From: Tomocerus qinae
Taxonomy: Eukaryota; Arthropoda; Collembola; Entomobryomorpha; Tomoceridae
DNA: 64,000 nucleotides
NCBI GenBank assembly: GCA_020055645.1
Contig: CM034547.1
Span: 52,144,909 to 52,208,908 of the forward strand
Direction: 5' to 3'
In this document: positions 18,866 through 47,895 of the stretch, piece after piece
Layout of the letters: every line of letters begins with the position of its first letter
How positions within the stretch are numbered: position 1 is the stretch's first letter
Notes under the pieces: generated by a model
What the model was told of the DNA's origin: nothing
The model's input: only the letters and a program-made list of their open reading frames with translations
Databases searched by the model: none
Translations under genes and position numbers: made by a program

Positions 18866-19318
18866 TTAAGGTTGCTCATCACGCCTGCTTAGCAACCGCA
18901 TGGGCCTATCTAAATGTGTGTTAAAAAATGCTTTACATCAAGCTTTATTCCTCCCGAAGATTACGGCCAATTTTTATGAGACTTACATTTTTGGAATCCT
19001 GGACTATCGAGAAACACAGGAGGGCGGATGGACTTTTGATATTATTGCTTTAAATCCTTTAAAAAAAATCGAATTCCAAAAAACGTGAATCAGTTTTAGT
19101 TTTTATACAATGCTGATTTTTTTGCACCATTTAAAGCAATAATATCAAAAGTCCATCCGCCCTCCTGTGTTCCTCGATAGTCCAGGATTCCAAAAATGTA
19201 AGTCCCATAAAAATCGGCCCTAATCTTCGGGAGGAATAAAGCTTGATGTAAAGCATTTTTTAACACACATTTAGATAGGCCCATGCGGTTGCTATGCAGG
19301 CGTGATGAGCAACCTTAA
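18866..19318. mobile_element. Fold-back (long inverted repeat) element
   Basis: The left arm 18866-19070 and right arm 19116-19318 are reverse complements over about 200 bases at roughly 90% identity, with a 45-base spacer. Weaker arm similarity may extend outwards by about 20 bases. Each arm holds the same 62-codon open frame (starting MGLSKCVLKN), but the two differ mostly by amino-acid-changing substitutions, so I read it as a chance frame and not a gene. A diverged copy of one arm lies at 56394-56583, showing this is a dispersed family. No convincing target duplication was found here. It is probably a non-autonomous MITE or fold-back DNA transposon; the superfamily cannot be assigned. Confidence 0.85.
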
Positions 19319-22300
19319 GCGAAATTATAGCAATATCAACAATTGAAAGCGTAAGTATGTTTCAAAATGCCACAATTTGTTAAAAATGGTGTCGTTTGTG
19401 ATTATGTGAGCCCTCAACATATTATTAAGAAGACTATACCATTCAAAAGGTCGTCTCAAGATCTACAGTACGATTGATGAATTTCTATATGATTAGCCAT
19501 ATTAACATTTTTTAATTTAGTATTAAGCTAATGTTCAGTAATCATGTTCACCCATATTGTATTTCTTGTTTTATTTAATATACATTATATACGAGCAAGT
19601 GAATTGCAAATAAAAGCCGCAGCTTCCATGATATAGGCAACCAAACAATATTTATGTTTCGATTTGAGTTTAATCCATGCCTATGATCGACTTAATTCCT
19701 ACTTTTGCTTAATTTAGTGTTGAAATATTTCTACAGTTCATTATTGAAAGATGGGGAAAATACTATTGACACATTCTATGTGTATTTACCATTTGTACAG
19801 AATTCCTTAGCCGAATTTAGTTGTAGGAAGGTTGAGGGGACTATTTCAACGAACTCAAGGGTGAGTGCATGAAATCTTGGCGTGCGAAACTTGTTGCACA
19901 AATTGCTGCCTAAAATAGTCATGTAGTAGACAAGCTGTCACAAATCAATTCTTAAGCGTTTAATGATAAATATTAATAGTTCTATCGTAATTCACTTCTT
20001 CACTACTGGTAAAGTAGTTTTTTGATTTTAGTAATAAAACCGACAAGTCTGAAAATCAGAACTCAATTTCAAAGAATAAAAAATTGACTAGATCATTTCA
20101 CGCATGTACAATGTAATACACGCATATTTAATTAACTAAATTATGTAATTTCTTTTGTTGCTCAGTCAGTGTTCGTGTCATTACTACAGGTATACAGATA
20201 CTCCACTTTTAGTTTAATGTGTAATAATGTCTCGTTATATGACTTACTTTCATCCTGTGTGTTTGCGAATGTTACAATTTTCAAAAAAAAATTGATGTAC
20301 TTAGATGTAGAACTGGTTAGAAAGGAAATAACGATGAGATGTATACGATAATGGCTGAGGACGTTTGCTCATCTGCTCAACTAAAGATTAGTGTAAAAAT
20401 TATGTTTGCTTCACTTTTGTACATGCAATTATATCATTATCTCGAAATACATCCCCTCGGGTCTGGATTAGAAGGTACATAATTATCATCAGTATTTATT
20501 GAATTATAGGTTAGACAAATTATTGTTGCAACATATCTTATGCCATATATTTACGTGCACCATCAGCACTGTGGTAGATAAAGTTTAAATGTAACGAAAA
20601 TGAATCTATAATGTCTTATTGACACAGAAAAGGCTAAAAATGATTGATTGGTTTGACCCGGGAAACCTTTGTAATTATGAAGATGTGATTATTCTCTGAC
20701 ATTTTTATGAGATCTCTTGTACGCAGCAAAATTTACAGGCTTACAATTTATACACGTACGAATGAAAGAATGGAAACAGTTGTCGTTAGCCTTTAGCTAG
20801 TTTCTGGTGACTCCAAATGTGTTTTAATGACTACCAAAGGGAGGTAAAGGAAGAAATGGTGCGATTTCCTGCATTAATTTAACAGAGAGAAAACATTTTG
20901 TTCTAGAAATAAACAGCGTTAGTTTACTATCTGTAATAACACACGCTGTGCACGTGAGTGCGTAGTGTTACGGAATTAAAATTATTTATTTCGGAAATTA
21001 TGTGTTACGTTTACATAAAAGAACTCCTTAAAATCATTCACGCACCGTAAAATTCTCTACTTCCATAAGTGTACCTACTTCATTTTTCGCATTACATTTT
21101 TCTCAATGTATTACTAATTTATTAATTATTAATTAGCGATTGTAAAAATATGTTTCCATTTGTAAACTCGAGACTTATCACATTATTCTCGAAACCTAAA
21201 TTATTCCTACATCATGAAATTGTATCAGATAATGATTTCATCTTGTAGGTACTTGTAGTTTAACCAACGTATATTTGTGGATTAGGGCATGTATGCAGTA
21301 AACTTTTTATCCGTGAACAATGTATTACTTAATGTTACTTTCTAATTTGCTGAAGAATGGCTAACCTTTAATATTATTAGTGATAAAAAATTTGCAAGCA
21401 ATTAAAGAAAAATGCTGCATAATACATTTTAATGGAACCGAACTACTTATTGTTGAAGTAATCATAAGGTTATGCATCCATTGAATGGAGCATTTTCAGA
21501 AGTCAATCATGTAACTGTAGCCAAAAAAATACCATTAACAGCTTTGTAAATTGGAATTTATTAGCTATAGCTAAGTATCAATGAATAATGTCGTATTGTA
21601 AAGTCCATTTTATGATTAAAGTGGTACATTTTAGACCAGGTATGCATGGGACGACATTTTAAAAGCGTTTTTATTTAGCCTGACACAGTAAATGTCAAAT
21701 GATTGGACAGGAGGATTACCATTGGCAAATTAAAGTCACTTTAGAATTCCAATGTTAAATGATTTTGCAATTTCTAATTTCTTGAGTGTGTATGTATGTA
21801 GTAACATGATATTCAAATTCAAGCTTGAACTCAGAAACAACAATTGTATTTTATCTTTTCCTTATACTTATATGCTATAACTATATGTATCACAACAATT
21901 CAAGGCATTCAAGGCAAAAATACTCTGCATACAATAAAGTTAGAATCTTGACCACTTTAAAAATATCAAAAAATAAAAAATGCATGTTATAAATAAACCG
22001 TTTAAATGTAATTGTCCCATGCAACTCGCACGGACACATTATTTCCACAGATAGCATTTAATTAATTGCATGGTCTGTGCACGAGTAAAAGTAAGTACTA
22101 TAAGTCCGTCGATAAACTTAATTATACTCCAAGTCAACGCGTGCTAAAATTTACGCATAAGTTAGTTAACATAATGACAAAGTGTAGAAGTTATATGTTC
22201 AGGTGTGGCGTGGCGAATAACAAATTCGAAAGGTTTTCTTCTTCCAAAGTAAATTATAGGCTGGTATCTTAAATGTCATGCTTATTTGAATCTGTGCATG

Positions 22301-27685: not shown

Positions 27686-30600
27686 ATGAAAATCAGGATG
27701 CTTGGGCACAAATCGTGTGCCTGCTACATCTTTGTAGTAACTTTGACGCTTAGTGGTGCTGTGGCAGTAACAACAGGATCTCAGATAGCGAATCTTCAGT
27801 CAGATTCAACAGATGGACAGGCTGAATCTCTAGTAAGCACGACTACAAGCCCCGTTGCAACAACTGTTGCAGATTTTTCCTCAAGGCAAGGAGTCAATGG
27901 CTTTAAACCTTCATTTGATTACGCTCGTTTCGCTGAGCAGAGAAGTGCCTCGAATCAAAACTCAAGTAAGGTTAAATTTTCAGCTGGAGAAGAAGCTCGG
28001 ACTAAGAAACACACCCGAGGGCAGAAAATCCCTCCTGCTGCATTGAAACTCTACGACAGCCACCGAGACCAGTACAACAGTTCTTCCACTGATCAGGTAC
28101 AAAAAGAGGAATCTTTACGTAAGCTTCCAACGCTTTATTATGGAGATGTATCACATTCAAAACAATCTCCTCTGCATGAAAATACACAGATAAACAACAT
28201 TGAAGTCGATTTGAAAGACCATCATCCTCATCACCATGAAAATCATAATTATGAAGGAGGAAAGGTGGGCATTGAAGAACATCCTAAATATTACTTTCCG
28301 AAAACTCTACTGGGCAAAGAGGAACCACAGGATCATGCTGTCGATCATGGACATGGGCACCATCATGAACACTCGATCGACCACGGACATGGACATCATC
28401 ATCCTGTAGATGATGTTAAAGTAAATTACGGACATTCTCATGGGTATGGCTATGGATATCCTGAACACCACGATCACCACGATCATCACCATGATCATCA
28501 TGATCACCATCATGGTCACCACCATCATACCCATTCTTTTGGGCACAGGTTAGTGAATTTTGTTGATATATGAATTTGAAATTATATAGTGTAAAATAAT
28601 ATTTCATGGAAACTCCGAGGTGGAAAAAATTCTGTGCTCCAGTTTGTTACTTGTATTTGCGGCTTTACTATAAAACAAATCTGAGTATCTTGACGGTAAT
28701 ATTTTTAGTATTTGCCCTGTTTGAAGTATTACATTAAATGTTGTACGAGCTACTGCATGCATCGTTATGCATGGTATAGCTACTATAGTCTTTAATTTAT
28801 CAAAGGCATGTTGTTTCATATACTAATGTATCTACACCCCACACAAAGCACAGATAGTATTGTATAAACGTTATCTGTATGAGGTGAGCTTTAAGTTTCC
28901 TCTGAACGAAACTATATGCGAATAATTACGAAAGTACGCTGTGTTTATGTATGCAGTCAATGAAAACATAAACAGTGCTACGTGACAATGTGATAAGTAT
29001 TTACAGAGTTTATAATAATAATATTATGTAGGTGGGTGGGTGGATACTTTTGAAATTACTGTCAAGTCATTATTAAAAAGAGAGAGTTTTCTTTTTGCTG
29101 GGTTCATGTATATAATTATCAATGTAATTGGTAATTTTCATTAGAATTGACAATTTTTACTTGAATTAAACAAAACACTTTCTCTCTGTTTGTCATAGTC
29201 TGAAGCATTCGGATCACCACAAAGGACATGGACTGGAAGGAGCCATTGGAAAAGCCTTCCACCTTCTCATTCCTTCTGCCCTTTTCCTAGGAGGTGTTTC
29301 AGCTCTATTTCCCAACCGAGTTCACGTACCAACCACAGATAAGTAAGTTTCAAACAATGTAAATTTTTAACTTTGCAATCTATGCATGTAAATTGAACAG
29401 CAGCAAATAATATTTCACATCTTACGATAAGTAATGGAACAAGTTAAATCAGATAGTTAAGGTTTGCGATACTTAATTATGGTTTTATTTTTATGATTGT
29501 AGTAAATACAGACAAAAGAGAGCTATATCTTATCAAGCGGGTAGTTCAGATCCTTCTGACTTTGAGGATATTCCAGCCAAATACTTGAAAAGAGAACACA
29601 GAAGTGACGATGATGGTGGAATTGAATTAGACCTTGATGATGGGGATAATCCATTTCCCTTTCCAAATATAAGACCACCATTATCACCTTCAAGAGATGG
29701 TCACAGAAATTATAATGCAAGGCTTACTCCTCATCAGCGGTTTGAGTTGTCTCCTCCAACGACACAGAGGACACCAATTGGTCTGAGACATAGACATCGT
29801 CAAAATAATCGGGGAATGCCGGAGCAGTACGATGCTTTCTTCTTTAATAATCCAGCATCATACAATTTCGATATTCCACCACCAACATTTTCACCAGATA
29901 ATGAACCATCCCCGATTCCACCAACTTTCCCAACAAATCGCCTGCAACCAACTGAAGAAATGGTGTCTGAAGAAGAACTTGCTCCACCTCAAGAAAGGAC
30001 AACTACTACAACGACCACAATGCCAACTACAAGAAAACCGAAAACCAAGAAAACCAAAAATCGTAATACACTAGGAGCCGGGCATTTTGTTCCAATCCCA
30101 ATTGAAGAACCAGTCCTTGATGTTATTCAAGATACTACCACTGAGACAGATGGGGAAGAGTTGGAGACCACAACCAGATCTCCAATTGTAAATAAAGACA
30201 AAAGTAGTAATAACAGTACAAATACTCGGGATCGGGAAGCAAGAATACAAGACGAGATAATAAATCCTCTACAAACTCTGAATATGATTTCCCCAAATCA
30301 AATATCAGATGATGATGAAAAAGCCAAAACGAAGAATGTTGACCTGAGCCCTGACGGTCCAGTCATTGGACTACTTAGCAGTTACGCGGCACATGACAAA
30401 GACTCCCCAGAGTGTCAAAAGAAAGCTCTGTGTCAACTAGCAATGAAAGGAGCATCACCTGTAGCTACAAAATTTGAATCATTCTTATGGAATCTCGCTA
30501 ATCTGTAAGTGCCCTGATATTTGCATTAAGTATAACGAAGAATGCTTTTAATACTTTTTTAAATAATTCTAATCGTTTCTTAACAAATATTTATTGTTTC

Positions 30601-30717
30601 AGCGTTCCAGATCAGTTTAGTCAACTTTATGATTTGGAAGAAATTTTTAATTCAATTAAAAAGAAGAACTGCAATACATTCTTGTGTGACAATCCCAACC
30701 TTGACATACAAATGTAG
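27686..30717 (+). CDS. Secreted His-rich protein, paralogue of the 40.4-kb gene
   Basis: Four exons: 27686-28548, 29199-29342, 29503-30504, 30603-30717, all with GT-AG borders and consistent phase, giving 707 aa. The ATG immediately follows an acceptor, so the first exon is noncoding. Residues 1 to about 32 are a signal peptide (core CYIFVVTLTLSGAVAV). LYYGD is at 150-154. A long His/Asp/Gly stretch, with two DHGHGHHH units and many HHDH blocks, closes exon 1 and could bind metal. Exon 2 encodes a hydrophobic segment (LLIPSALFLGG), and exon 3 opens with the basic site RQKR, so cleavage by a furin-type protease is likely. The middle is Pro/Thr-rich. The C-terminus has C640-x5-C646, then the phase-2 intron at codon 670, then C693-x4-C698. 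I do not know the family; the Cys layout distantly recalls DM4/DM12 proteins. Function unknown; extracellular by inference. Confidence 0.87.
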
Positions 30718-31370
30718 AACAATATTACGTTATTACACAAAATTTTGAGCTGGGCTCGATTTAATTGAGCTTCAAGGCTCCAACATGTCTTCATGAAAAC
30801 AACAATATATCAACAAATATTATTGCTTATCCTGTAGATTTTAATATAAATAACCTTAATTTAGTAAGTATACGAGCATTAAATGCTATTAGATTTCCCT
30901 TCCTAATAACAAGTCACATATCTTAGTCACATCATGGTTTTAATTTTAGTTTTAAGTTTTGTGAAATGTTCCATTCTATTTTGCACCTTACATTGTATAA
31001 ATCCTTCCTAAAAACTGTCTCTTAATTGTACATGCAGAAATTTCTATGAATTTCAACTTAATTGTTTTGTTAATTATGTTAAGACCATTTTTGACTTTTG
31101 GGAAGCTGAAATAAAATATCATTTCCAAAAATTTACCCAATACATACTATTCTAACTAAAAATAGTACTAGATTTACATTAGGACTTATAGTTAATTCAT
31201 AATACACGTATTTCAAGACAAACAGAAAAGTCTTGCTCTACCTTCCTACATACTATACGTTTAAGTTTTCAATTGAAACTCCAACCGTTCCATTCTACTA
31301 TAGTCTATTCGTGTATATTTCAAATCTTTGAATTGATTACATACTAAATGAGTACATAACAGAAGGTCAT
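30718..31370. other. 3' UTR and short intergenic gap
   Basis: Probable 3' UTR of the His-rich gene, with AATAAA at 31110-31115 about 390 bases after the stop. After that, AT-rich sequence runs up to the transposon terminal repeat. Nothing else was seen. Confidence 0.5.
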
Positions 31371-32076
31371 ACCGAGGCTAGCGTAATAGGAAGGCTCACT
31401 CATTTTGTATCTTACACATGCAAATTTTGACGGGCAAAAGTTCCTTGCGAGTTACTGTTAGAGGGCGCACATACACTCCCGAAAATTACTTACTTTTCAT
31501 AACCCTTTACATAGCTTTATTACAGTTTTTTAACTTTTTTGGACAAAGACTTGTTATGAAACTTCACTTTATCAATTTTATCCGTCACACTTGTTGTGTA
31601 GTTTACAAGATATATCTTAACTACATATCTAAGAATAACATTTATTATTTGTAATGAATGAGAAGCATCAGAGCATCCACATCTGATTTGACTTGCCAGT
31701 ACATAATTTTCTAAAAAACGAATGATTTTTTTATCCACATTATCTACGGTTAGTACTTGAGGTCCAAACGCTGAAAGCGTATCAACGATACATTTTATTA
31801 TACCACTGAAACGAGGCGAGGGGTAGCACAAGCCACCTCTGTCTTGAAGAGCTATAAAACGATTACATTCTAAAGATTTGTCTTCTACCAAAATGTTTTG
31901 CGCTGATATAGAGCAAGGTACTTTTTCTTTAACAATTTTTGCACAGAATCCAGCAATCATAGTTATCCCTGCGCTTTGATAGTCTATTGAGACCAAATCT
32001 GTGCGTATAAATAGTAACCATTTATTTTAGCTTCAGAAATATAAATATCTAAGGATCCTATTACGCTAGCCTCGGT
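31371..32076 (-). mobile_element. Truncated DNA transposon, P/THAP9-like
   Basis: The 706-bp element is bounded by perfect 21-bp terminal inverted repeats beginning ACCGAGGCTAGCG (31371-31391 and 32056-32076). Inside, on the minus strand, an open frame (31996-31520) of 158 codons resembles the C-terminal part of P-superfamily/THAP9-type transposases: LQDRGGLCYPSPRF, then CSDASHSLQIINVILRY. The N-terminal DNA-binding and catalytic parts are missing, so this is an internally deleted, non-autonomous copy. The flanks share only CAT on both sides, not the 8-bp duplication expected of P elements, so the superfamily call is moderate. The left end lies about 650 bases past the His-rich gene stop. Confidence 0.65.
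31520..31996 (-). pseudogene. Transposase C-terminal fragment
   Basis: Remnant frame of 158 codons inside the transposon at 31371-32076. It shows DRGGLCYPSPRF near residues 52-63 and CGCSDASH near 109-116, followed by an amphipathic LQIINVILRYVVKIYL stretch, a pattern I associate with the C-terminal domain of P/THAP9-like transposases. No THAP finger or RNase-H-like catalytic core is present. It is not expected to make an active enzyme. Confidence 0.6.
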
Positions 32077-32352
32077 CATACACGTCGGAAGGCGTATATG
32101 ATATCATTTACTCCCGTTTACATGTTTACGCGGCTTAAATTATAGTTCCAATAGCAAATTCCGCTATGATTTTATTCCTTCACTTTTATTTGTACAAAAT
32201 CAATTATTTGCTATAGTGCATAATGGAAAACCTTCATTTTCAATTCCAACAAACCTAACATAACTAATCACTGTAATAAATTGTAAGACTTGTATTAATC
32301 AGTGCTGAATATATCTACACAAAAAATCTAGAATCCATCTATCACAACACTA

Positions 32353-32889
32353 TTGGCGTACAGGACGGTCTAATGGTGTAAAAACCTGGCTGGCTGTCTG
32401 CAATTTTGGGTTCGAATCCTAAGAGCGCCTCAGGTTGTGTGTTAGATAGTCTGGAATTGGGAGAAGCTATCTTTGCCGTATATTCGTTATTAGCATTGAT
32501 TTGCCTATCTTGGTAACAATATGACTATCTTTCCTTACCCTGTCTGCAGTGTGCAGATTGCTCTCTTGGTTAGGTGTACACTACGAGTTTACCTAGTGAT
32601 ATACTGGACTGAGGAGCACATGCGAAGGGATGCGGGAGGTTGCGATGACTGTCACACCTAATGTGGTCAGCTCACCTAACCTTGCCACCTAAGCACACAT
32701 AGGTAGAGTACGGGACTGTGTAGGGCTGTACCACATAATGGTTTAGTACCCCTCACCAAAGTCTCTTCGTGTAAGTCTGTACACTCAGTAAAGTTGTCCG
32801 GGAGTCACTGCAAGTAAGCCACCCCAGGCTTGAGCGGTAGCATAGCTCTACTACTATAGTAGATGCTGTGCTCTCCCCCTAACACATAC
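32353..32889 (+). mobile_element. tRNA-derived SINE with 12-bp target duplication
   Basis: The 537-bp insertion is flanked by exact 12-bp direct repeats ATCACAACACTA (32341-32352 and 32890-32901). The head has a pol III A-box-like CGGTCTAATGG (32366-32376) and a perfect B box GGTTCGAATCC (32409-32419), separated by 32 bases. The 5' GGCG (32355-32358) can pair with CGCC just past the B box, like a relic acceptor stem, so the head derives from a tRNA. The roughly 460-bp body is not one I recognise and has no open frame of note. The tail ends in CCCCTAACACATAC and not in poly(A), so the partner LINE probably recognises a specific tail. The perfect target duplication suggests a fairly young insertion. 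Confidence 0.85.
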
Positions 32890-32901
32890 ATCACAACACT
32901 A

Positions 32902-33528
32902 CAGCTAATAAGGGGATATAATGAAATTAGTTTTTGTGAAGAAAATATAGGTGTATATATTGCAGTGTAGTATGTAGATGTCAATTACATGTACACTTCT
33001 TATCAGTATTCTAGTAGATATTTTCTGCATCAAGGCAATAGGTACTATGCATATGCAATGCAAATATTATGCAATACAGGAGTCCACATCCATTCTAACT
33101 ACAATGAATACTAATAATAAATAACTCAGACATTAAATTTTAATCTCATAGTCAAAGTCTGTACTAAGTCTGTCGTCTCTGTATCAATCATGCATAGTTG
33201 GTTCTAAATTGTTAACCCTAGACCCTACCGTCTCCGTTCCAACCCAACTCTATAACATTGTGATATGCATATTACAAAATAATGTCGTTCCCGCATACCT
33301 AATCAAATTACAAGTTCCAGCCGAAATTAGTCTACAGTCTACACTTTACCTAGTCCATAATAGAGATATTTGAATATGAATCTTAACGTAATAAATGCAA
33401 GAATGCAAGAAGAGCGTCAAGGAATAGTTTCTAATCAATTATAATATTATCGACTCTACAATGGAGTAAGACTTTCTATAAACAGCATTTCGGAATATTC
33501 ATCATTCGATTCGAAGCAGATCGGACCA
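32902..33528. other. Intergenic gap between two mobile elements
   Basis: AT-rich sequence between the SINE and the hAT element. No open frame, repeat or regulatory motif stands out. Confidence 0.5.
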
Positions 33529-33536
33529 AGCACAAG

Positions 33537-34550
33537 CAGTGTTCGATGACCAGCCGGTTAGCCGGCTATAATGGTCAGGTTAAAATGGCTAGCCGGCTGG
33601 CAAAATACCCTTGTTAGCCGGCGGATAAAAAGGCTAAATTGGTTAAAATGGTCAAAAATAAAATATACGTAAAATGGGGCAAAGTAAAACCCTATCCTTG
33701 ATCTACACCAAAGTTTAAACTAATTTTGTTTAAGGTGGGATTCATTGTTTCATAGCGGAATCTATATTCTGCGACAAAACTTAAAAAAATAGGGCGTGCG
33801 CGCAAATTGTGGATGAGAAGGAATTGCTGCGAGTTGTTGAGTTGTTTTGATGGTTGCGGAGCTTTTGTTTGTAAAGAAATTGTTTGTGGACGTCTCCTTG
33901 TTCTTCCCACATTTTTCGCAGTAATTATCAAAAATTTTACATGGAAAATCGCATTTTCCAAATTGCGAAACTTTAGGACATTGTGCAGAGGTGAAATAAA
34001 TTTCAAAAAAAAGACGATCAAAATATCTATCGAACTTGAAGCCGCTTTTTTCAGTTTTCATCATTTAAACAGTAAATAAAATTTATATACATTTCTGCAA
34101 CGCATTTCTCCTACTCAAATTAAATTCAAATTTTCAGCTTTCGAAAAATATTTTTGAAATTTTGGCCTTCAGGTTCGATAGAGAAATATGCGTAGATTTC
34201 AAAAGTGTCAATTTTATTACTATACTCTTTGCCGTTCTCTCTGAATCTGGAATTTGCGAACAATAAACCCACCCTTAAGAAGGACCTACATACTTACAAT
34301 CTACAAATCAATCTTCTGGTCACAATTCTTCCAACTAAATTTGAGAATTAATTTGTTTGAGAAGAGAGTACACAGAGCAAAATGGTGCCAGTCTATTTTT
34401 ATTCATTTGTTGGACGCTGTGGCTTGAAGTTTGAACTCCTGTGCTGCAAAATCAAGGAGGTTTCAAGGATATGGACATTTTTAGCCATTTTAACCATTTT
34501 AGCCGGCTGGTTGGTCAAAAAGCTTTTTAGCCGGATAAAATCGAACACTG
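33537..34550. mobile_element. Non-autonomous hAT-superfamily transposon
   Basis: The 1014-bp element ends in 11-bp terminal inverted repeats, CAGTGTTCGAT at 33537-33547 and its complement at 34540-34550. It is flanked by an exact 8-bp target duplication AGCACAAG (33529-33536 and 34551-34558). The CAGTG start and 8-bp duplication are the hallmark of hAT elements. Both subterminal regions carry repeated AGCCGGCT and GGTTAAAATGG blocks, the usual kind of clustered transposase-binding sites. The interior encodes no hAT transposase. A minus-strand frame (34064-33762) has a Cys-rich stretch (CDFPCKIFDNYCEKCGKN) that could be a decayed BED-type finger, but this is weak. The right end lies 321 bases from the ATG of the next gene, so the insertion sits in that gene's promoter region. 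Confidence 0.88.
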
Positions 34551-34871
34551 AGCACAAGCACAATAGCAGCGTTTTCAACAAGGGTAGAGTGTTGTAGTTG
34601 TTGTAGTGTAGCGCATATTGAGGAAAGTAACATGAGTAGAATTTAGACAATTTAGAGTAGTGTTTCCGAATCTAACCCTGATAATTGCTACTAATCTTGA
34701 ATCCTGGTTTGTGTGTGTTTATTTTCTTTTAAACTTTTTTTAAATTACTAATTTCAACCTAAACTATTAAAACTTTTTCTCCATTTTTATTTATTGATTA
34801 TGTAGGTCCTGGAAAAGCTTGGTGCCCTTTGAACACTGGACTGCAACTGCACTGTCTGACTGAACTCGAAA

Positions 34872-36132
34872 ATGGAGCTAGAAACTAGCAAAAGCCTGTA
34901 TATGATTCCATTTCCAGAGATAAGCGTCAATGCAGAAAATGACAAGACGGTTTTTGTCAGTTCAGAATTGGTATGCACTAGCCGAAAACTTCGTCGACGT
35001 GTCACAAGACACATGCAGGAGTACAACAATTGGCCCAAAGGACATAATTCACTACTTAAACTGTCATACGCTTCCCACAGCGAAGAAATATCCGCCATTA
35101 AATTCATCGACTGCACCAAAGATATTACTGATGGAAGCGACAGGGATGTTTTTGGAAAACTGCCAATTTTGTCAAGCTATGTATGGCGAATGCTAAATCA
35201 CTGGAGTATTTTTCATATTCAACAGGTTAGTTATATCGTTATAAATATACAATATACAATTTCTTAATAGGTTGACTTGTAACTTCAAACTTAATTTTAA
35301 TTAGCACGCTATTAAAGTTAGTTAATATAGTTTATAACGACTGAACAACAGTAATTATTGATTTGTAAAACAAATTAAGTCCTTGTTTTCCCTACAGATA
35401 AAAAAGCAATTAGAGGAACGTGAGATGGAAAAGTACAATAATAGTAAAATTCCTGTTATTACCATTGAGCCTGACCGAGATTGGAACTCTGTTTCTCGAT
35501 TTGAGGAAAAAATTTTTGGGAATATGGAACCCCACCAATTCTTGGCTTTAGTTCAGGTTTGAAAACATACTGTAACTGACAATAAGATATATATTTGTCT
35601 ATAAAAATAAATTGCTGCGCTAAGCTAATCACTCAGTAGTTAAAGAAAAATCTTTTTTGGATTGGGTATATAATTAATATAATAATCTTTATTTTTTATC
35701 ATTAATCCTGATTAAATGTTGTATAGACTACTTCTGACATTCTGACTAGTTCTGACTCTAACAGTAAGTCAGTACTAGTACGTAAGGACATCATTAGCAT
35801 TTTTCATATTTTGAACTTAAGAATCTGTTTTCTTTCACTTTGTATAGGGCAAAAATGATCTTGGATTGGATGACCTACATAAAGTTATGGAAAACTGGTT
35901 CCGTTTGTATAAGGGTCGACAAGTAAAATTGGATAAGGACGGAAATGAAGTTTCTGTGGAGCCTAATACGGTTTATAAGAAAAATCGTCGCGTAGGAAGC
36001 AACCATTATGCTTCAAATATTAATTTTTATGGACCGGCAGTACGACCAGTTCCATACAACATAAAAGGATGGGGTTGGTGGTGCCGAGATAAACCTGGGA
36101 GCAATAACCATTCAAGTACCCCAAGATCTTAA
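34872..36132 (+). CDS. Unrecognised 265-aa protein, three exons
   Basis: Exons 34872-35225, 35398-35556 and 35848-36132, all phase 0 with good GT-AG borders. The start is fixed by an in-frame TGA four codons upstream and a fair Kozak context (GAAAATGG). There is no signal peptide or membrane segment, so it is probably cytosolic or nuclear. Visible features: a basic stretch SRKLRRRVTRH near residues 37-47; conserved-looking tryptophans (YVWRMLNHWSIFH near 103-115, RDWNSVSRFEEKIFG near 142-156, MENWFRLYKGRQ near 185-196); and a C-terminal GWGWWCRDKPG near 245-255 before a Ser/Asn tail. The sequence looks like a folded, non-repetitive protein under selection, but I cannot name the family. AATAAA at 36391-36396 is a likely poly(A) signal. 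A competing frame in exon 1 (from 34930) ends before the splice site and does not continue into exons 2-3, so I rejected it. Confidence 0.85.
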
Positions 36133-39100
36133 TAATAATTAGCTAAACTATATATTTTATGCTATGCATTTTATATGCTATTAATGTGGTTAAGCAAGTT
36201 TTACATGCTGTGTCCCTTTAGTTGAGAACTAGGTCCCTTATTGCCATTTGTTAAATTCTCTTATTTCAGTTTTTTGTAAGGTTCATGGTTAAAGACGTAA
36301 TTTTGTGGTGAGAACAGAAATAGAATTATTAGTAATGATTTGATAATAGTAGTATTTAAGTAATGGTAATTAATGACTTACAAAATGGACAATAAAGTAA
36401 GGGAATATTCTAAAAAAAAAGTGGTATCATATTTCTTATTGGTTATTAGCATTTAAATATCGATGACCATCCATCTGTTAAAAAAGAACTAATAGATATT
36501 GATAATCTTTGGTGAAGTTTTTTGGGTTTGAAGGGTTTGAAGTTTTTTTCTTTAAATGTTTATTATATTGATAGCTGTGTGGTAAGTTGTAGTAGTAGTA
36601 GTGGCTGACGTTTTGAAGGTATTATCAGGATGAAAAATGTGGCACACTTTTACCTCAAATAGATATTTCACTGAGATTATAAACATTACATTGCATATTG
36701 CATGGCATTGTACCGGAAAATTACCACTTACCATCTTATCACTAATATGGTCCATAAATGTAGTTAGATAGGTATAGAATATAGTGATATATTATAGTAC
36801 TATATACTTTTACTGATATGCAACAAATAGAATGATCTGTTTAGTGATACAATACAATGATACAATCTTGAATTGAAACCGCACCAGTAGTTACTCTGAT
36901 TACTAATTACCAAATGAATTTTTATTGCATGTAGTATGGTACTATATCACATGTAGTAATGCAATTACATGTGTTTTTAGTTAAGTCTGTAAAATGAGTT
37001 AAATCTTATTACTCATCATCATTGATGAATGACTATCGAAGTCAAGTAAGTCAACGTTAAACCCTAAAATTCCAAAAGCAAAGCAGCCGAACATACATTT
37101 TGTTAGATTTAATAGATGCGAAGGATACTATTTAGTACTAATACATTAGTTGATCTTTGGTTTCGTCTATACAGTAAAAGAAAAATGAGGTAATGAAATG
37201 ACTAAATGTAGGTCGCTTACTATTCCCATTAAATGGCTAAGTTAGCCAGCCAAGATGAGTACAAGGCATAATTTGTTCCTAATCTAAAGCTACAATGTAG
37301 AAATTACGAGAAATACATTGAATAGTCAATGCAGCATCATTCATTCTCATGTGGTGTAATGCAAGTAGTATATGTAGTAGTTTTGGTTTTCATTGGGCTG
37401 TCTCGCTAGAGAAGGTGTGATGATGAAAGAGGAATCCAGCAAGGAAATGAAGGTTAAGATTCCTTGTGTTGTCTATACTAAACTCAAATAATTGGAGATT
37501 CTATCTGAGAAAATAGTAGGTAGTTAAATGAGTACATGCAACTACTTACACTGTAACTCCATTCTACTGCAACAAATAGTAATCTAATTGTATCAACATG
37601 TTTTCATGTCTACTATGTTTGCTGTAATGCTGTATATGTCAATATGAGATCATAGGAAAAATGAGACTGAACACAAAAGTGTAACACCACAGAGATGAGC
37701 TTTATTTTGGCAGTGAATACAAATAAGGTTAGACAACTAGGAATTGTTATATAGTTCAGTAGTAGTATTACTATATTAGATTTCAAAGTCGCGACTTGGT
37801 TGGTTTATTGATGAGGCAGCTTTATTGTCTCACTGAATTGTAATTGTAAGTTCACTTAACGTGTACGGAACACTTACAATGCACATACAAGTTAATACCA
37901 GTATACTACGTATGTAAAGTTTGTATAATCTTCTCAACAGGTTTTGCATTACAATTACGTATCTCATGATGCCGATGACAATGCATGCGTACGGATGAGT
38001 GAACAGATATCACGTAATGGAACATTATAACAGAGGCAGTACCGGAATGACTGGATTATTTCTTATTAAATGCCAAAACTTACAATATTTTGATGTAGGT
38101 ACTCCCATTTGGGTTTTGTTTTATACGAAGGTATGTGACTATGGAGAATTGACCATAGTTCAGGAAAGTAGCAATAGAGTAGCAAGTACGTACCTAATGA
38201 TAAGTGGTTTTCGAACATTATCTACAGAAAATACATATATAACACCCATTAGCCATACCAGTTATGAGATATAATACGCAATGCAAATTAGTTGAACGTT
38301 TACCATTCTCGTGTGCATAATCATATGCATCTATACCCTTATAACAGATGTAACCCATGCAAATAAGGGGTTATACCATAGCAGCACCCAGGCCAGGCAG
38401 TGAAGTAACATCCAGTTACAAAAATCTCATCGTGTCAGCCAATACTGTGTTACATATCAGATACTATGAAAATACCTGTACTATTCATTTCAAATATCTG
38501 TGTCAAACAAAGTCAAAAGCAGAAATACATCAAGTTCAAGACTCGCTGATGTCTGCTGCACTAAACTAACCCGGCCAGAAGAGCAGAGCAGTTGACTTTT
38601 GTCAATTACCATTACATACAATTTACATACCAGACATCTCTTTAAGGATGATATCCAAATCTATGCGCATTTTCCTGTATAACAATTCAAATGAGGTAAG
38701 AAGGGGTGAAAAGTTGCGACGTAAGCTTGTTGCAAAGACATCACTTTAGATATGGACATATGCGATTTGCTTGAATTTCATGGTGTCACTGAGTAGGAAT
38801 GCCACCCGTCGCAATGACAAGTTAAATTATCATTTTAAGCACAGCGTATCTTTTTGCAAAGCTGTGCAAAAGTAAACTTGAATAACTGCAAAAATATTAT
38901 TTCATTCATTTCCTACGCAAAATCTCATTTCTTTGTGAAGGAAATAGTAGGTTACAAATACTGGCACAAAATTGGTTTCAAAAACGGTATAATAGCTCCG
39001 CAAGGTTAAGGTTTATATATGTACTGTGTTAAACGAAGAAAACTGGCATCAAAAGGCGGATGACACCAGGAGACTGTAACATAGGGATAAGTGATAGTTA

Positions 39101-39658
39101 ATGGGTACAATATAATTGCATAGAAAATAGAAAAGAATGAGAAATTACGTATACTGTGCATGTAGCAATGTTGATGTTATGTCGCCTATACCTACTTACG
39201 TATACTTGTCTTAGGCTTTTCATCATCGGTTTGGTTGAGTTTCATCAAGTTGCCTTTTCTTCTTACTTGAGACTGATACTTTGAGTCGATCGAAGTTCTC
39301 TTCTGTATTCCGTGCATACGAGGTCTGCTTCGTAGTGTTGCTCTTGAACATCTTGCTGCTCTGCTGACACAGAAAACAGCAAGTTCTGTACGCCTTCTTT
39401 TCTCCATCCGGTCTCCCCAATCCAAGTTAGTGGATTCCTATACCATACCATTCACAGATGAACATCCAACTTCAGTTCGCTCTCAAACATCACTTATGAT
39501 TGTCCAACGAAATATCTCTCTTCTTTTAATCAGTTTCATTTCAATTGAGCTCCGGCACGTAAACTAATCCAGTTTGGCTCGTAAAACTTTGACGAGCTCC
39601 ACTCAACTCTTACATTTAATTTGTAAACACGACAAAGATAAAAGTGAGATTGGTTATT
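36133..39658. other. 3' UTR and intergenic region
   Basis: The first 260 bases or so are the probable 3' UTR of the 265-aa gene (AATAAA at 36391). The rest is AT-rich without a supported gene. Near the right edge, 39192-39451 is GC-richer, open in all three minus frames, and could belong to a divergent transcript from the promoter of the 40.4-kb gene (see findings). Confidence 0.5.
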
Positions 39659-39793
39659 TCAGTGCAGTGTGCGACTCATTTTTTTCGTTCGTTCACCGAA
39701 ACATTTTTGGAAACATGCTAAGGACGTAAACCATTCTATTTCCGTGCTACATTAGCAGCTTCCAAAAATTAGTGAGCTTTAAATTTTTATCAG
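39659..39793 (+). promoter_or_regulatory. Candidate promoter and 5' UTR exon of the Q-rich gene
   Basis: An initiator match TCAGTG at 39659-39664 lies about 20 bases after an AGATAAAAG box. A pyrimidine-rich leader (TTTTTTCGTTCGTTC) follows, and the stretch ends at a strong donor CAG|GTAAGT (GT at 39794). The leader resembles that in the candidate first exon at 23.3 kb. Splicing to an acceptor shortly before the ATG at 40383 is inferred; I could not identify that acceptor with confidence. Confidence 0.35.
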
Positions 39794-40382
39794 GTAAGTA
39801 ACTAAAAGTTATTCATAATTTTACATTCGTAGTAAAGTATCATTGTACCTAGTAAAATAGTCGATATTCGTACAATATATTGATTTTCGATAAAATACAT
39901 AAAATGCCAAATTAGAGGTATGTAATGTAGTTTATGCATGAAATATCATATCTGTTAATTACACGCGTAGGTAATGACGATGAGTTACGTCTTAGGAATT
40001 AGTTCATTACCTTTACATTTCTACTGCTAAGGGATGATAGAATAGAAAAGAGCTGCTTGACTGGGTCTGTTGAGTTTGAATGTCGTAGTTCTCACTAAAG
40101 GTAAAGAAACCACGGAACAAAGGCAAGGCAAAGCCAGACGATCTAGATTTCTCCTTATTTCATTAAATTCCTACGTGCTGCAAAATGAAAGTCAATAAAT
40201 TACATTCTCACCCATAGACATGGGTCAAAATCGAAGTTAGCTTTTTACACATGCAATTTGCATTAGTAGATATGATAAATATAAGTATTTATGAGGATAC
40301 CGCACAGAAGGGAAGGAAATGTAAATGGGTGTTGCTGTATTGATTGATAGAGTGGAGATATCTCATCCGTTCTGCGACCAAG

Positions 40383-43300
40383 ATGCGTTGGAGCAGTTGT
40401 GGATCTTTAGTCGTTTTGTTGTTCACGCTAACCTTCACCTATTATACACATGCAAAATCAATAGATGATTTGCATTCGTCCCATTCTTCGCATCATCCCT
40501 CCCTGTCAATAGCAGGGGACCCGAAAGATGTCAAGCTAAAAGCTTCAATAGATCAGCTAGTAAGAGCTTTGCAGTATACGGAAAAACCAAAGGAAGAAAA
40601 GAAACCAAATCTGATTCGTCGGAGGATCACCCCCGCAGAGTTGATCACGAAGAAAACGAGGAATCTTTATTATGGCGATAACCCCGCTCAAGCGATACCC
40701 GATCCCATTACTGTCTCCTCCCAACCCATTCAAATAACTGGAGCAAATGGAACTGGAGGAAAGCGCGGGCGGAGTCTTACATCTATTGACAAGGACGGTG
40801 TGAAAACGATCGAAGGTATTCGTGTTCCGGACAATGAAGAAGATAAACATTACACATGGAGAAATGCTCGTGTCATCAAGGGATTTTTGGTGCCCAACGA
40901 CAGATCCGCACAACCTCATCGTAAACGCCAAATTGCTTACGCAGATAGCAGTCGACATTATTTGGCCCAACAGGGATCAACTTTGATAGATTCGGCAGGT
41001 TACCAGCCTCAAGCTCAAGCCCAGACTTCTCAGAGTATAATTTACCAAACTCAGCCTCAAGCCCAGACACAATATGTACAACAGGATTTGGGAGCAGCAA
41101 CCATTTACACTACTGCCAATAATCCTTCTACTGTTCAGTACCAGAGTGGCCCAGGTTCTGCCACAATTCTGACCACGGCACAAAATATTCAAGCCGCATA
41201 CCCACAATATCAGCAGCAACAAGGTCAAATGTATGTTCTTCAAGAGGGAACTAATACATACGTGCCATATAACCCAGTTCAAGCGAGCCAAACCCAGAGT
41301 CAAAGTCAATTCACGTCAAGAACTGGTGAAGCAAGTCCGCCTGCATCCCAGACTCAAAGCCAAACTCCAACTCAGGCTCAACAACTTGCTACCACTGCTG
41401 AACAACAACAGCAGCAATTGTATCAACAACAAGTTTTGCAATATCAACAGCAGCAGCAACAAGCTGCTGCTGATGCAGCCCAAGCTGAAGCTGCTCATGC
41501 TGTCCAGCAAGCCCAAGCAGCTCAACAAGCCCAAGCTGTCCAGCAAGCACAGGCTATTCAACAGGCACAAGCTGTCCAGCAAGCTCAAGCTGCACAACAA
41601 GCTCAAATTGTCCAACAGCAAGCACAAATTGTCCAACAACAGGCCCATGTCATTCAGCATCACGAACAGCCCGCAGCAAATGCAGTAGTACCGCAAGAAA
41701 GTCAGCGTCCTCCCCAAATCCAAGCTCAGCAGGTGCAACAAGCCCCAGTCCAGCAAAATGTCATTGTCCAGCATCCAGCTCAGTCACAACAACAAATCCA
41801 CCAGCAAAACATTCAAATTTCTCAAGCACAACATCAAGCACAATATCAACAGCAGCAACAAATTGCAATTCCACAAGGTGCGACTGTTATCCAAACTCGT
41901 ATTGACCAACAGTCTCATGACATCGGTGCTAGCCCATCAACTCAATACATTCAATTGCAGCAGCAACCCGGCCAAACTGTTTACCAAATTCAAACTCCTG
42001 CATCCTCTCAATTTTCCGAGAGACAATCCGTAACTTACCAGCAATCCAATTCAAATCCTAATGCTTTCGTTATTCAACCTCAGACTTATGTAACTGGGCC
42101 TGGAGGTCAAATGTTTACAGTTCCTGTCCCAATTCCCGCAGAGCAAGCTCATCACGATCAGCAACAACAACAACAACAACAAAATCAGCACGCTATTCAT
42201 TCTCACCACCAACAGCAACAAAGTGGCAGACTTCGCCATGACCTTGGTCAAAACCAACAGAACCCAAAGGACAAAAATGTTAGCGAGCATTTCCGTGACA
42301 AATTTTCACTGGCCAACCGGCTGATGCAATCATTTCAATTCAATAGGAAAACAATGGAAAATGTTGAGAGAAATGCCGTAGTCCCAGCATTAGCTTCCAC
42401 TGGACTTTTCTTAGGGCTCGGAGCTTTGGCTGCTGGTTGGTATCTATCAAAAGCCAACCGAGAAGTGGGAATAGTTCGAAGAAGTGGACGACCAGTAGGA
42501 AGTCCTGGAGGACCTTTGATTCAGCCACAGATCACTTCTTACATTCCAGGTCCCACTGCTCCAGCTGCTCCTGTGGTAGCCGCCTCTCCTCCTCCTGCCG
42601 CTGCTGCTGTAGCCGCATCAACAGGTAGGAAACGCTCTCGTCGTTCTCCTCAAACTCATGAAGTAGACCAGGCAACATTTTTCCAAAGTATTATTCAACA
42701 ATCTCTTGAGAAACAGCAACAGAAAATTGAAGACACTCGGCCAGTATACAGTCCCCCTCCTCAGCAAGTCAGGGAGATTGTTCCAGAGTACAATCATCAC
42801 CAAGAAGCAGAAAGCAGTTACAGACCAAAACACTCAAGTCGCAATGAACGAATCCACCCGAAATACAGTAGTAGCCGAGAGGATGACTACTACACGAGCA
42901 CCTCTCCAAACTCCAAGGTTTCCAAACAATACGCACAAGAGAAATCCGGCTGGAGTCTTGGCTCTGCTAAGAATTTCGCAAAAGTTGCAGTTCCGGCGGT
43001 TATTTTAGGTGGAGCGATTATTGGGATGGCAGCTTTGATTTTTGGTTGGTACATCAGTGGCACTAACCGTGAAATCGCTTTTCTTGAGCCTGCTGCCTAT
43101 TCCCGGCGTAAACGATCCCTCACTTCTACTGCTCTTTCTGATGGTTGGCTTCAACGTGTCCTTACTTCTATTCATGGGAACCCTTATGAAAACCTTTCGT
43201 CTCGAGAGCAGGCATTTGACTCAAAGAGCGTCCTTCCTCACCCTTTCATCGAAAAAGAGACAAGTAAAACTTCTGATTTGGAATTTAAAATTTCTAATGG

Positions 43301-46300
43301 TGGGCTCGCTGGAGTTCTTGCCGGTGGAGCAATTATTGCTGTTCTTGCTTTAGGTTTGGCTTCTTCTTTTTCAGAAACAAGTCGTCAACTTAACTCAGGA
43401 GCAACTAACATCTTTGGCTCCCATTCCACTAATTACAAACTCTCTTCTCCGTCTGTCTCTTCTAACTCTTTTTCACACCTTCGGGTCCCTCGCTCAATCC
43501 TTACGAATGAATTGAATGTCGGTGTGCAAGAAAACCCGGGCTTTTTGGGAAGCATTCTCCAGAATCTGGAGGTTAGTCAAACCACCATCCTTAACAAATT
43601 ACAAGAGGCTGGCTACACTAAGTGGCAGGAAACTCCATGTGCCAAACGCATTTTCTGCGATGTCATGTCTGCTCAGAGTGACGACTCTGTAAGTCTCATG
43701 GAGAAACGGATGGCGACTGTTATCAACTTGTAAGTTCACGCAATCTTTACACATTCACAACTTTTCTCTTCCTATTTCTCTAAATTTTCTCAAAAAAATG
43801 AATCATTGACTCTTAATTATCCCTTTGCTCAATATTCGAAAAATGTGCAAGATTAGTTTCCTTTTCTTTACATGTGAATCCTAATCTTAATGTCATTGTC
43901 ATGTGTAATCAACATGCACAGCCTTTCACTTTTCATCCGTTTAAGGAAGTCAGATTACAAGGAGTAAAATCCTCATGAACTTCAGACATACCTGTTAAGA
44001 AAATTGCACATGTGCAAGTGTGTATGTAGAACTGCTGTGGTTTCGCTCCTGCGATTTCATGCTAACTAGATTTATACGTCTACTGTCGAATTCCGTTACT
44101 TCTGCCCTGTGGCGAATTTTTTTCTCATATAACATTCGTGTATAGACATTAAGCTAGAAAGTGAAGTTGTGGCAGTGGTAGAAAACAGTCTGCTAGTGGA
44201 GCAGTAGGAGAGATGTAAGTAGATGAGTCAAGTCAGTAAACCACAACACACAAAACCTCCATAATTATAAACGTAAGAATTATATTGCACACATCCTCAG
44301 GTGCAAGATAATGTAATGCCACACTGTTCAACAGTTCAGAGTTCACTCTTGTAGATTGCATGAGACCCAATGAATGCCAAATACTTTAAAAATTCCACTG
44401 CTGATTTTCTTTTTGTGTGCTCAATGCCAATGGGCTCTTATGTGGTTTATCCAATTTCCTTTTCTTTACGTTAGCTTTCATTACATATTATTACTGAATT
44501 CTTAACAGCAGAAAGGATGCAATAACTTTTCGTTTAATCAAATAATTCTTGAATACACTTGGCATTAATGCTCAGAGCCTTCATTTTATTAACCTCAGTG
44601 CGTGTTACAGTTTATCACTCTGAGTAATAAAATCATAGGTACAATGATTATAAGTAGGCGTACCTGTACATACAGCATTAGATAGTTATGAACTTATCGT
44701 CCAAATTATAAGATGTATATCTTGTGTAAAATAGTGTATCTTCATTTGCATTTCTCAATACAGTATAAATGTAACAACTACATAGAAGAAATTTATTTAT
44801 ACTTAGAATTAAGAAAGCTCAGGAAAAAATGTCCCCCTTCGTTCCTCACGATATTTCACTTTTCATCATTTACTAAGATATCAGAAAAGTCTTCATATTT
44901 GGTAGGACGGAGACTCAGCTAACTTTAGCAGTAAAATCCTTACAGGAAATAATCGCCCCCCAAATCCAGCACAAATGTGTTGTAAATGTAGGGGCACATT
45001 GCACAATGGAAACAGCCCATTGTAACGTATATTCGGTATTGAGACGTTGAAAGACCAACTTTTAAAGCATCTGCAACATTGTGGAAATGAATTCTTTTCA
45101 AGAGGAAAAAGTATGGCAATCGACAGTGAAGTGACCGAGATCATTGTTCTAAAAACTTTCTAATAATGATCCCTTTCATTGTTCCATGCGACCCATTTCA
45201 CTGAGGGGAATACCATTTACTACAAGATCTTCCTTTTCAACCATGAAATTAAGAGCTCTCAAGTTGATTTATCACGGATAGTAAATGTTCCTATTAATAG
45301 AATGCTACGAAATCGCATCTTACTACAGATTATAACGGTTTTACTAGAATTCAGTAGTGCATTGCGTGCTAGCTACTCATTCACAGGAATCAGCTACTGT
45401 GTAGTCGTTACAACTTCATTTTATGCACAATTTCCGATGAGTTTGTGGTAGTAGTAGTTTGTTCATGTTTTATTGCTGAATTTAAGTAACATGCCCACAG
45501 AATGTTTACTAAGCGCAATGAATTTATATAAGCATGCTAATGCCTATTCATCGCATTAAATCATCATAATGTTACATACCAAGGTATAGTGTCAAGTAAT
45601 TGACTTACTTGAACTGATTGTTTTATTGACTCAAGTTGAATGTCTCAAGTTTAATGTCAGCAGGTTACTTACTAATAATTACAGTGATAGACATTGATAA
45701 CACAATTTAATAGTACCTACTTTAATCAATGTATCTGGTTCATTGTACAGTATCAATGTTATGGAACAGAAAGATGTTTTGTGAATGATGTTCATCGTAG
45801 AGACTCATAAAATGGACTTTGCTTCGTAGTATAGCATTTTAGCTCAAGAATGGTACATGCTACTTAATACTAGTAGAGTAGGTTCTGTACAGGTGTGTTT
45901 AAGTATTTATTGCAGTATTAAATGATTTACACATTTTATAACCAGTATCTTAGGTTCAGGTTTTGTCAGTGTCAGCATTGGCAAAAGAAGGGTAGATGTT
46001 TAAGAGTAGGATTCATATTCAGATGCATGTAAGTATACTACTATTACTTGCATCTACAGTGCCTTGTCACGCTGACCTAAAAATCAAACCATGCAGTAAT
46101 TGCTACATTTTTTGTTCCACAGCTAACATAATGCGGTGTATACAATCTCGATGATTCACAGTTTTGCTCCTTACTTATGAATGGCAGGTGCTCGTTTGTC
46201 ATGTTGCTAGTTAGAGGATTCTTATGATCAGTTTTCCGTACCATTTTAATTATTAATGCACTTCTGCCATACTGTAAGGAAAAATTTAACTAAAACAACA

Positions 46301-47895
46301 GGAAGTTTATACGGCCATTTGCATTGTACACTTTCTTATTAGTAGTTATAAGTTTAATTAAATTGATTAGCATAGGAGGATCACTACATAAGAAACTTAA
46401 TTGTTCGATAATACAGTTCTGACAGAAAGTGATTTTTGAAATATCCTATACAAACCCTGCTTTATAAAGTTTTAACAAGTATATACACTTATATGCAAAA
46501 GAATTATCAGTTAAGCACGCTTATTGGGTAGGAATGGAGTGAGATGATTTGAACATAAGTAGATTAGATACATAACAATCAGTAGGCTGTAATTGTGACT
46601 TACATAGCTTTCTTATTTGCTACATTTTATGAATATTAAACTAAATTAGGTACCTTTGTAAGCATACTTAGTTATAGGTACTATGTGTTATTGTTATTTG
46701 TCCCACTTCTCGTTAGTTTTTTTATCGTAGTGATATTATGTCAAAATGTGTAGTGACACAAGTAATTCAAACAGGTACCTATCAGCCTTGTGCAGATTGT
46801 GTATGTACTCGATAAGAATTTTCTAGTTTTGACTAATGAATGTTATCTGCTTATTTGTCGAGTTAAGGTGTATAGTATTAGGTTCCCAAACAGATATGAT
46901 ATGGGTAGATTAGCGTATCTAATAATTTTAAAGAATTGAACCCTCCTATTTCGTTTCAGTCTCACTCATCTTCATCTTAAGTAGATTTGGGCTTCTTTGT
47001 GGAATTCGTGAATAAGTGTTACATATAGGCACTTGAATTTAGCATAATAAAAGTGTACCCATTTGTAAACAGGTTTTCTTCAATTTGCAATTCCTGGGCT
47101 TTCGGACGAGGTCTATATTTTAAATCCTTGACTTAAACATAATAGTTAAGAAAACTGGTCCTAAAGTGTATTTGTAAAACCGGGTTTGAGGCAAAACTGG
47201 GCTACGCCAACTAGAGAATCATGCATTGCATATACATTACGTTGGCAGAAGAGTCAAGTAGGCAGGTAATCAAAAACTTTGGCGATCACTACTGATATTT
47301 TGTTGTTGGGTGAGTTTTTACGCATTTTTTTCTTCTGCGACTGAGGTTTATCTATGTTTTCCCGACATTTTTCTCTTTCATTCCACTGGGGCACTGTGTC
47401 AAACTGCTGCCAGCTCTTACAATTAGTGCATCAGGGTCAATTCTTATGCTTTTCATACTGACACTGTTGTGGTTCGAGTCTGATTGGACTACTAGTATCA
47501 ATTGTACGCAATTAAGTTGCCGAATTATTATTCATCAATTCTTTATCGCTAGAATACTGTATGAATTGCCATAAACAGAAAAAATGTTAGAGAAAATTTT
47601 TCTCTTGAAACGTATGTTCACCCAAATGCTCACACGCACCAATGATTCATTTAAAGTCAATGTAATGTCATTGTCGATGAATATGGGAATACCAAAATAG
47701 GAAGATGTACTCTTATTATATTGTGATTTCCTTAACAGGTTGCCAAAGTCAATGTCAAGCCCCCTGTCAAAAACACTGGGTGACTTGATGTCTTCGATAA
47801 ACAGAAGAGATTGTTCCGCATATAGTTGCGGCGGTCATTGGGTCGACCCTAGTATAGTGGACCAGCCATCACCTCCAGCCAATCAACCAAGATAA
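40383..47895 (+). CDS. Secreted Q/A-rich protein with triple hydrophobic repeats
   Basis: Two exons: 40383-43729 and 47739-47895, joined over a 4.0-kb intron (phase 2), giving 1167 aa. I chose the ATG at 40383 over the one at 40344 because a signal peptide follows directly (core SLVVLLFTLTFTYY). Residues: LYYGD 95-99; RKR 180-182; Gln/Ala-rich tract about 210-620 with (QQAQA) repeats; hydrophobic segment 1 about 667-690 (GWYLSKANRE); basic site GRKRSRR about 748-754; hydrophobic segment 2 about 868-895 (GWYISGTNRE); SRRKRS 907-912; hydrophobic segment 3 about 973-1000. The three hydrophobic segments look like internal duplications. The C-terminus has C1086-x5-C1092, the intron at codon 1116, then C1141-x4-C1146. 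It shares this layout with the 27.7-kb gene. Secreted or membrane-tethered and processed, by inference; function unknown. AATAAA lies at 48769 and 48779. Confidence 0.87.
43730..47738 (+). other. 4.0-kb intron of the Q-rich gene
   Basis: Starts GTAAGT and ends CTTAACAG. No trustworthy gene inside. A minus-strand open frame near 44.9-45.1 kb has no support. A tRNA-like A-box/B-box pair lies at 47424-47481 near the 3' end of the intron. Confidence 0.75.
47424..47481 (+). repeat. Possible tRNA-like relic (A and B boxes)
   Basis: TAGTGCATCAG (47424-47434) fits the pol III A box and GGTTCGAGTCT (47471-47481) is a near-consensus B box, 36 bases apart. I could not fold a full cloverleaf or find flanking duplications, so this may be a decayed tRNA pseudogene, a SINE head, or chance. 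Confidence 0.25.

Follow-up and report, generated by a model that had tools for sequence, protein, structure and literature searches.

The locus examined here raises the question of how two adjacent genes of the collembolan Tomocerus qinae, designated gene A and gene B, whose products differ so widely in their low-complexity middles, are related to each other, and to which known family they might belong. Both genes lie in a 64,000-nucleotide (nt) stretch of contig CM034547.1 (positions 52,144,909 to 52,208,908; G000:C2:52144909-52208908 of a 334-Mb assembly of 115 contigs), which is referred to as the window and whose numbering is used throughout. An earlier note on this DNA had described the pair as a fast-evolving, extracellular family of two genes without a name, joined by a C-terminal module of four cysteines (Cys) and a conserved intron. 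Overall, we lean toward a reading in which A and B are diverged paralogues that encode secreted pro-proteins with a far-diverged DM4/DM12 cap and that contribute to an apical matrix, the parts of which are held with differing degrees of confidence, as detailed below.

Gene models and the shared C-terminal module

Gene A comprises four exons and encodes 707 amino acids, with Cys at residues 11, 13, 640, 646, 693, and 698, while gene B comprises two exons and encodes 1167 amino acids, with Cys at residues 6, 1086, 1092, 1141, and 1146. The exons, junctions, and Cys positions assigned to them in the earlier note hold and are as follows.

27686..28548, plus strand: gene A exon 1, with a signal-peptide-like start, LYYGD at 28133-28147, and a His-rich stretch at about 28206-28548
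29199..29342, plus strand: gene A exon 2, containing the hydrophobic segment AIGKAFHLLIPSALFLGGVSALFP at 29242-29313
29503..30504, plus strand: gene A exon 3, with the furin-type site RQKR at 29510-29521 and a Pro/acidic middle
From 30413, plus strand: C-terminal part of gene A exon 3, first half of the Cys module (C640 and C646)
30603..30717 including the stop, plus strand: gene A exon 4, second half of the Cys module (C693 and C698), to 30687
40383..43729, plus strand: gene B exon 1, with a signal-peptide-like start, LYYGD at 40665-40679, and a Gln/Ala-rich middle
42372-42446, 42966-43061, and 43290-43379, plus strand: three hydrophobic segments within gene B exon 1
From 43638, plus strand: C-terminal part of gene B exon 1, first half of the Cys module (C1086 and C1092)
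47739..47895 including the stop, plus strand: gene B exon 2, second half of the Cys module (C1141 and C1146), to 47829

Because a possible acceptor AG immediately precedes the ATG of gene A, a further upstream exon of this gene is possible.

All four introns of the two genes are of the GT/AG type and of phase 2. The last intron, which measures 98 nt in A and 4009 nt in B, splits in both genes the 24th codon after the second Cys (C2) of the module, and the third Cys (C3) follows 23 codons after the intron in A and 25 codons after it in B, the resulting C2-C3 length being 47 and 49, respectively. The arrangement proposed in the earlier note, namely, a C-x5-C pair, a phase-2 intron 24 codons after its second Cys, and a third Cys 23 to 25 codons further on, was confirmed in both genes. 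The longer module pieces of A and B aligned with a score of 62, compared to a mean of 25.6 for the shuffles, 1 of 1,000 of which reached that score, and the score of the tight pieces was reached by none of 1,000. When the Cys residues were masked, the masked score was reached by 145 (long pieces) and 19 (tight pieces) of 1,000 shuffles, which indicates that most of the signal resides in the Cys residues and the intron. The N-terminal regions harboring LYYGD (residues 150 to 154 in A and 95 to 99 in B) aligned at chance level, their score being reached by 297 of 1,000 shuffles. Although the motif is present near both N termini, as had been pointed out previously, it is, therefore, without weight of its own and was dropped as a signal of homology.

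The 3′ exons were assessed by scoring every exon of 15 to 150 amino acids that follows a phase-2 acceptor within 8 kb and ends in a stop against the last exon of the other gene. The modeled exons, with a score of 40, ranked at the top of 177 candidates for B and 179 for A, sharing that rank only with truncated forms of the same exons, and the next unrelated candidates scored 28 and 33, respectively. Furthermore, both strands of 264 kb were scanned for the complete arrangement, namely, a C-x5-C pair, a phase-2 donor, and a fitting last exon that contains a Cys pair as well as a stop; this returned six rows, all beginning at the first half of A or B; two of these represented the modeled genes, while the other four were alternative second exons for the same donors. 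Single-protein queries of the genome with the modules of A and B, the N terminus of B, the hydrophobic regions of B, and the C terminus of the neighboring gene C (described below), a set that did not include the N terminus of A, yielded no convincing further copy; the additional matches were weak (expectation values [E] of 1.34, with a stop; 0.93; and 5.24, with stops). No Pfam family was returned for the whole of A or the whole of B. A profile of the two proteins was also compared with solved structures, where poxvirus F9-type proteins formed the best two matches (E of 0.0079 and 0.013), which were taken to reflect chance Cys spacing.

Taken together, the alignment of the module, the identical codon and phase of its intron, and the first rank of both 3′ exons support the proposal that A and B are paralogues, a kinship which is read from the C-terminal module.

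Probable relation of the module to the DM4/DM12 family

The pattern of the module is one which we presume to be that of DM4/DM12 (PF07841, IPR006631; DM4_12 in Pfam), the Pfam match being sub-threshold in B and absent in A. DM4/DM12 is a common but little-understood arthropod family, and one report assigns 30 fly genes to its domain-only class (PMC8664486). In the genome of T. qinae, a search for DM4_12 returned 12 matches, 8 of them above the curated Pfam cut-off of 22 bits. The 10 matches that came with loci were read (L008 to L017, of which L016 and L017 fall below the cut-off), and 8 of the 10 are interrupted between the two Cys pairs by an intron that is of phase 2 in every case. Of the remainder, L011 carries all four Cys in one open frame, and L016 has a longer loop without a break in the frame, in which an intron is possible. 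The codon split in the eight interrupted loci is the 21st after C2 in four, the 23rd in three, and the 26th in one, compared to the 24th in A and B, and the position and phase of the intron in A and B match those of the interrupted loci, the position being no part of the Pfam definition. As in DM4_12, A and B possess four C-terminal Cys with C-x5-C as the first pair, and their C2-C3 lengths fall within the range of 47 to 52 seen in the interrupted domains. The loop C-x2-[KR]-[ASTLI]-[ILVFM]-C, with its basic residue, fits all 10 DM4_12 loci as well as A and B, and it arose in 193 (A) and 176 (B) of 20,000 shuffles in which the Cys were held fixed, or about 1%, although this pattern was defined after the sequences had been seen.

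Several results weigh against this kinship. The longer C-terminal piece of B matched DM4_12 with 13.3 bits (E of 0.15), which is below the cut-off, whereas A did not match DM4_12 in Pfam and neither did the tight modules of A and B; by comparison, two real spliced DM4_12 domains from the same genome scored 74.4 and 39.5 bits. The sole match of the C-terminal piece of A was to an unrelated family (E of 0.16), and the longer piece of B also matched three unrelated families (E of 0.05 to 0.25). In favor of the kinship, DM4_12 was matched by none of 20 shuffles of the longer B piece in which the Cys were held fixed; 2 of the 20 matched some other family, one of them at an E of 7e-4. Against it, a profile-profile comparison by hhalign gave a probability of 1.2% over 16 columns. 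When a profile was built from the DM4_12 domains of this genome, A scored 2.9 bits and B 2.4 bits, essentially on a Cys loop, and these scores were reached by 13 (A) and 9 (B) of 500 free shuffles and by 37 (A) and 21 (B) of 500 Cys-fixed shuffles. Neither gene was among the 12 DM4_12 matches in the genome, and the spacing from C3 to the fourth Cys (C4) is x4 in A and B as opposed to x5-6 in the eight interrupted domains. In addition, those eight loci include close paralogues and are not independent, their splice sites were chosen by eye, and the donor of L009 (gttct) is weak, and for these reasons, as well as the post hoc definition of the loop, the intron and loop figures given above are generous. 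A and B fall short of membership in DM4_12, from which they also differ in being long low-complexity proteins.

It could be argued from these results that A and B are paralogues whose four-Cys module arose independently of DM4/DM12, with the Cys pattern and the intron phase being coincidental. The low or absent scores, the hhalign outcome, and the C3-C4 spacing are in keeping with such an origin, as is the fact that phase 2 alone is expected to coincide in one of three to one of four cases. This alternative is considered unlikely, however, since it must account for the simultaneous agreement of intron position and phase, C-x5-C pair, loop residues, and C2-C3 length with the interrupted DM4_12 loci. 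We propose that the module is likely a distant DM4/DM12 relative. Because a like Cys pattern and a phase-2 intron in the same place occur in DM4/DM12 genes of the same genome, the module is probably not private to A and B, and the earlier description of an unnamed two-gene family is to be amended in this respect, while the pairing of the two genes itself stands.

Hydrophobic segments, basic sites, and the neighboring cluster

The earlier note had also remarked on hydrophobic segments near basic sites, and such sites do follow the segments of both proteins: gene A possesses one internal hydrophobic segment with a furin-type site downstream, and in gene B furin-type sites lie downstream of segment 1 (63 residues on) and segment 2. 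The segments of A and B contain Gly, Ala, and Pro, and their hydropathy peaks at 1.8 to 2.4 over 19 residues. B segments 1 and 2 are homologous and represent a clear internal duplication (0 of 500 shuffles reached their score), with VPA...GWY.S..NRE in common; segment 3, whose score against segment 2 was reached by 5 of 500 shuffles, probably belongs with them. A structure model of B residues 640 to 1115, computed from the single sequence, predicts helices in the hydrophobic parts as well as in some other places, at a low mean predicted local distance difference test (pLDDT) value of 48.8.

Seven more long open reading frames (ORFs), most of them outside the window, adjoin A and B on the minus strand between -26669 and +8143, negative positions lying left of the window.

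5528..8143, minus strand: gene C, an 871-amino-acid ORF with a signal-peptide-like start and a hydrophobic segment followed by GRKKR
Low ends at -26669, -24907, -19943, -15523, -7729, and -5557, minus strand: six long ORFs left of the window
5753-5767 in gene C, 42624-42635 in gene B, and one each in the left ORFs -5557, -7729, and -15523: five G-R-K-[KR] sites

Several of the left ORFs have a signal-peptide-like or hydrophobic start, and the others are without one in the ORF. Pfam reported no credible family in gene C and five of the left ORFs, the -5557 ORF not having been submitted. Gene C shares the architecture of A and B; no C-terminal Cys module was seen in it, and sequence homology is not demonstrable.

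Across the nine proteins of this cluster, which contain 10 internal hydrophobic segments of 19 to 62 residues, a furin-type site ([RK]x[KR]R within 45 residues after the segment) follows 6 of the 10, compared to a mean of 1.0 under random placement, and none of 2,000 trials reached 6. No such site occurs within that distance after B segments 1 and 3 or after the segments of the -15523 and -19943 ORFs. Gly precedes 5 of the 12 R[KR][KR] runs in the nine proteins (Gly frequency, 0.049; binomial tail, 1.7e-4, calculated post hoc), and four of the five Gly-preceded sites are no more than 13 residues away from where a hydrophobic segment ends. Among the 55 pairs formed by 11 segments, of which two stem from DM4_12 loci, no homology could be demonstrated between cluster genes, segments being alike only within B. 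The two segments from the DM4_12 loci L012 and L014 resemble each other (0 of 500 shuffles), while the pairs formed by A and the -5557 ORF (4 of 500) and by gene C and L014 (2 of 500) lose significance once 55 tests are allowed for. More tentatively, A, B, C, and the six left ORFs may constitute an undescribed cluster of secreted pro-proteins in which a hydrophobic-then-multibasic unit acts as an assembly switch that can be removed or, alternatively, as an amidated peptide, two members at one end carrying a hyper-diverged DM4/12 cap and the middles being nearly unconstrained while switch and cap are kept.

To the right of gene B, the window holds two identifiable genes.

51.6-54.8 kb, minus strand: a sirtuin with two SIR2 exons (E of 2.2e-34 and 5.6e-20), which we take to be Sirt1
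61.0-62.1 kb, plus strand: EMC3 (E of 6.5e-30)

An EndoU ORF, a somatomedin-B-domain ORF, and a rhodanese-like-domain ORF are located further left than the cluster. An inverted repeat at 18851-19333, with two 233-nt arms that are 91% complementary and separated by 17 nt, resembles a short mobile element.

Proposed function and its alternatives

Three features, namely, starts that resemble signal peptides, the arrangement of the Cys, and the presence of basic sites, point to the secretory pathway, and it is very probable that A and B encode secreted pro-proteins, in line with the extracellular and fast-evolving character suggested for them previously. The long low-complexity middles would be free to drift, and a furin-like protease of that pathway is predicted to cut after the hydrophobic segments. 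As such cutting would need lumenal sites, it is more likely that the segments form patches on the lumenal side than that they span the membrane. ZP-domain matrix proteins possess an external hydrophobic patch and a furin site, and by analogy with their precursors, in which a hydrophobic segment likewise adjoins a furin-type site, the segments of A and B may be removable parts that delay assembly until cleavage; A and B differ from these proteins in that Pfam reported no ZP domain. The middles, rich in His, Pro, Gln, or Ala, would then provide the building material of a matrix such as cuticle or eggshell, while the four-Cys C terminus, probably held by two disulfides, would form a folded cap, the one part under structural constraint, presumably a far-diverged DM4/DM12 relative in which the phase-2 intron has been retained.

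The choice of matrix follows from the contexts in which DM4_12 appears in print. One report places DM4_12 domains alongside DUF1676 in two planthopper Osiris proteins, Osiris 17 and 24 (PMC12825958), and another lists DM4/12 with insect cuticle protein, chitin-binding, and DUF1676 among honeybee larval expression sets (PMC9764631). Cuticle or another apical matrix is accordingly the first guess, and a role of A and B in the apical extracellular matrix is a proposal which we regard as evenly balanced. Literature searches joining "DM4 12" with cuticle, or directed at an insect gene cluster with furin sites, returned no match. The two planthopper Osiris proteins (DUF1676 plus DM4_12) resemble A and B in having a signal peptide, a hydrophobic region, and a four-Cys domain near the C terminus. 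A and B differ from them in lacking a DUF1676 (PF07898) match, and identity with Osiris was ruled out, no such match being found in A, in B, or elsewhere in the window. Insects carry about 20 DUF1676 (Osiris) genes. Genome-wide, an exon-by-exon search of T. qinae, whose counts are lower bounds, returned at least three DUF1676 matches, at least one of them above the cut-off (on C3); a low number would be in keeping with a hexapod outside the insects.

Were the segments true membrane spans, A would be a single-span and B a three-span protein with a cytosolic Cys module. Their hydropathy peaks and the helices predicted over those of B, albeit in a model of the low pLDDT given above, are compatible with this topology, which would, however, leave the basic sites after the A segment and B segment 1 in the cytosol, beyond the reach of furin, and sits poorly with a conserved Cys pattern suggestive of an oxidizing compartment; we consider it improbable. 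The segments might instead be the product, with furin-like cleavage and amidation releasing hydrophobic amidated peptides and the rest of the protein serving as carrier. G-R-K-[KR] is the amidation-plus-cleavage signal of peptide-hormone precursors, and the cluster resembles amidated neuropeptide precursors in that five of its basic cleavage sites are preceded by Gly, mostly close to a segment end. No Gly is present, however, at the sites after the A segment and B segment 2, and the segments are long and unlike in sequence between genes rather than repeated short peptides, so that this interpretation appears quite doubtful. That A and B are unrelated, their Cys spacing and intron matching by chance, would agree with the weak Cys-masked similarity of the longer pieces but is very improbable given the shared codon and phase, their adjacency on one strand, their like architecture, and the top-ranked 3′ exons.

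Under the favored reading of A and B as diverged, secreted relatives, DM4/DM12, an arthropod family of unknown function, would, if these two genes are indeed hidden members of its kin, extend beyond what profile searches reveal, and the conserved intron would be a better guide to the family than its sequence. The cluster, in which hydrophobic segments and furin-type sites recur, would, in turn, offer a testable model for the timed assembly of an arthropod surface matrix.

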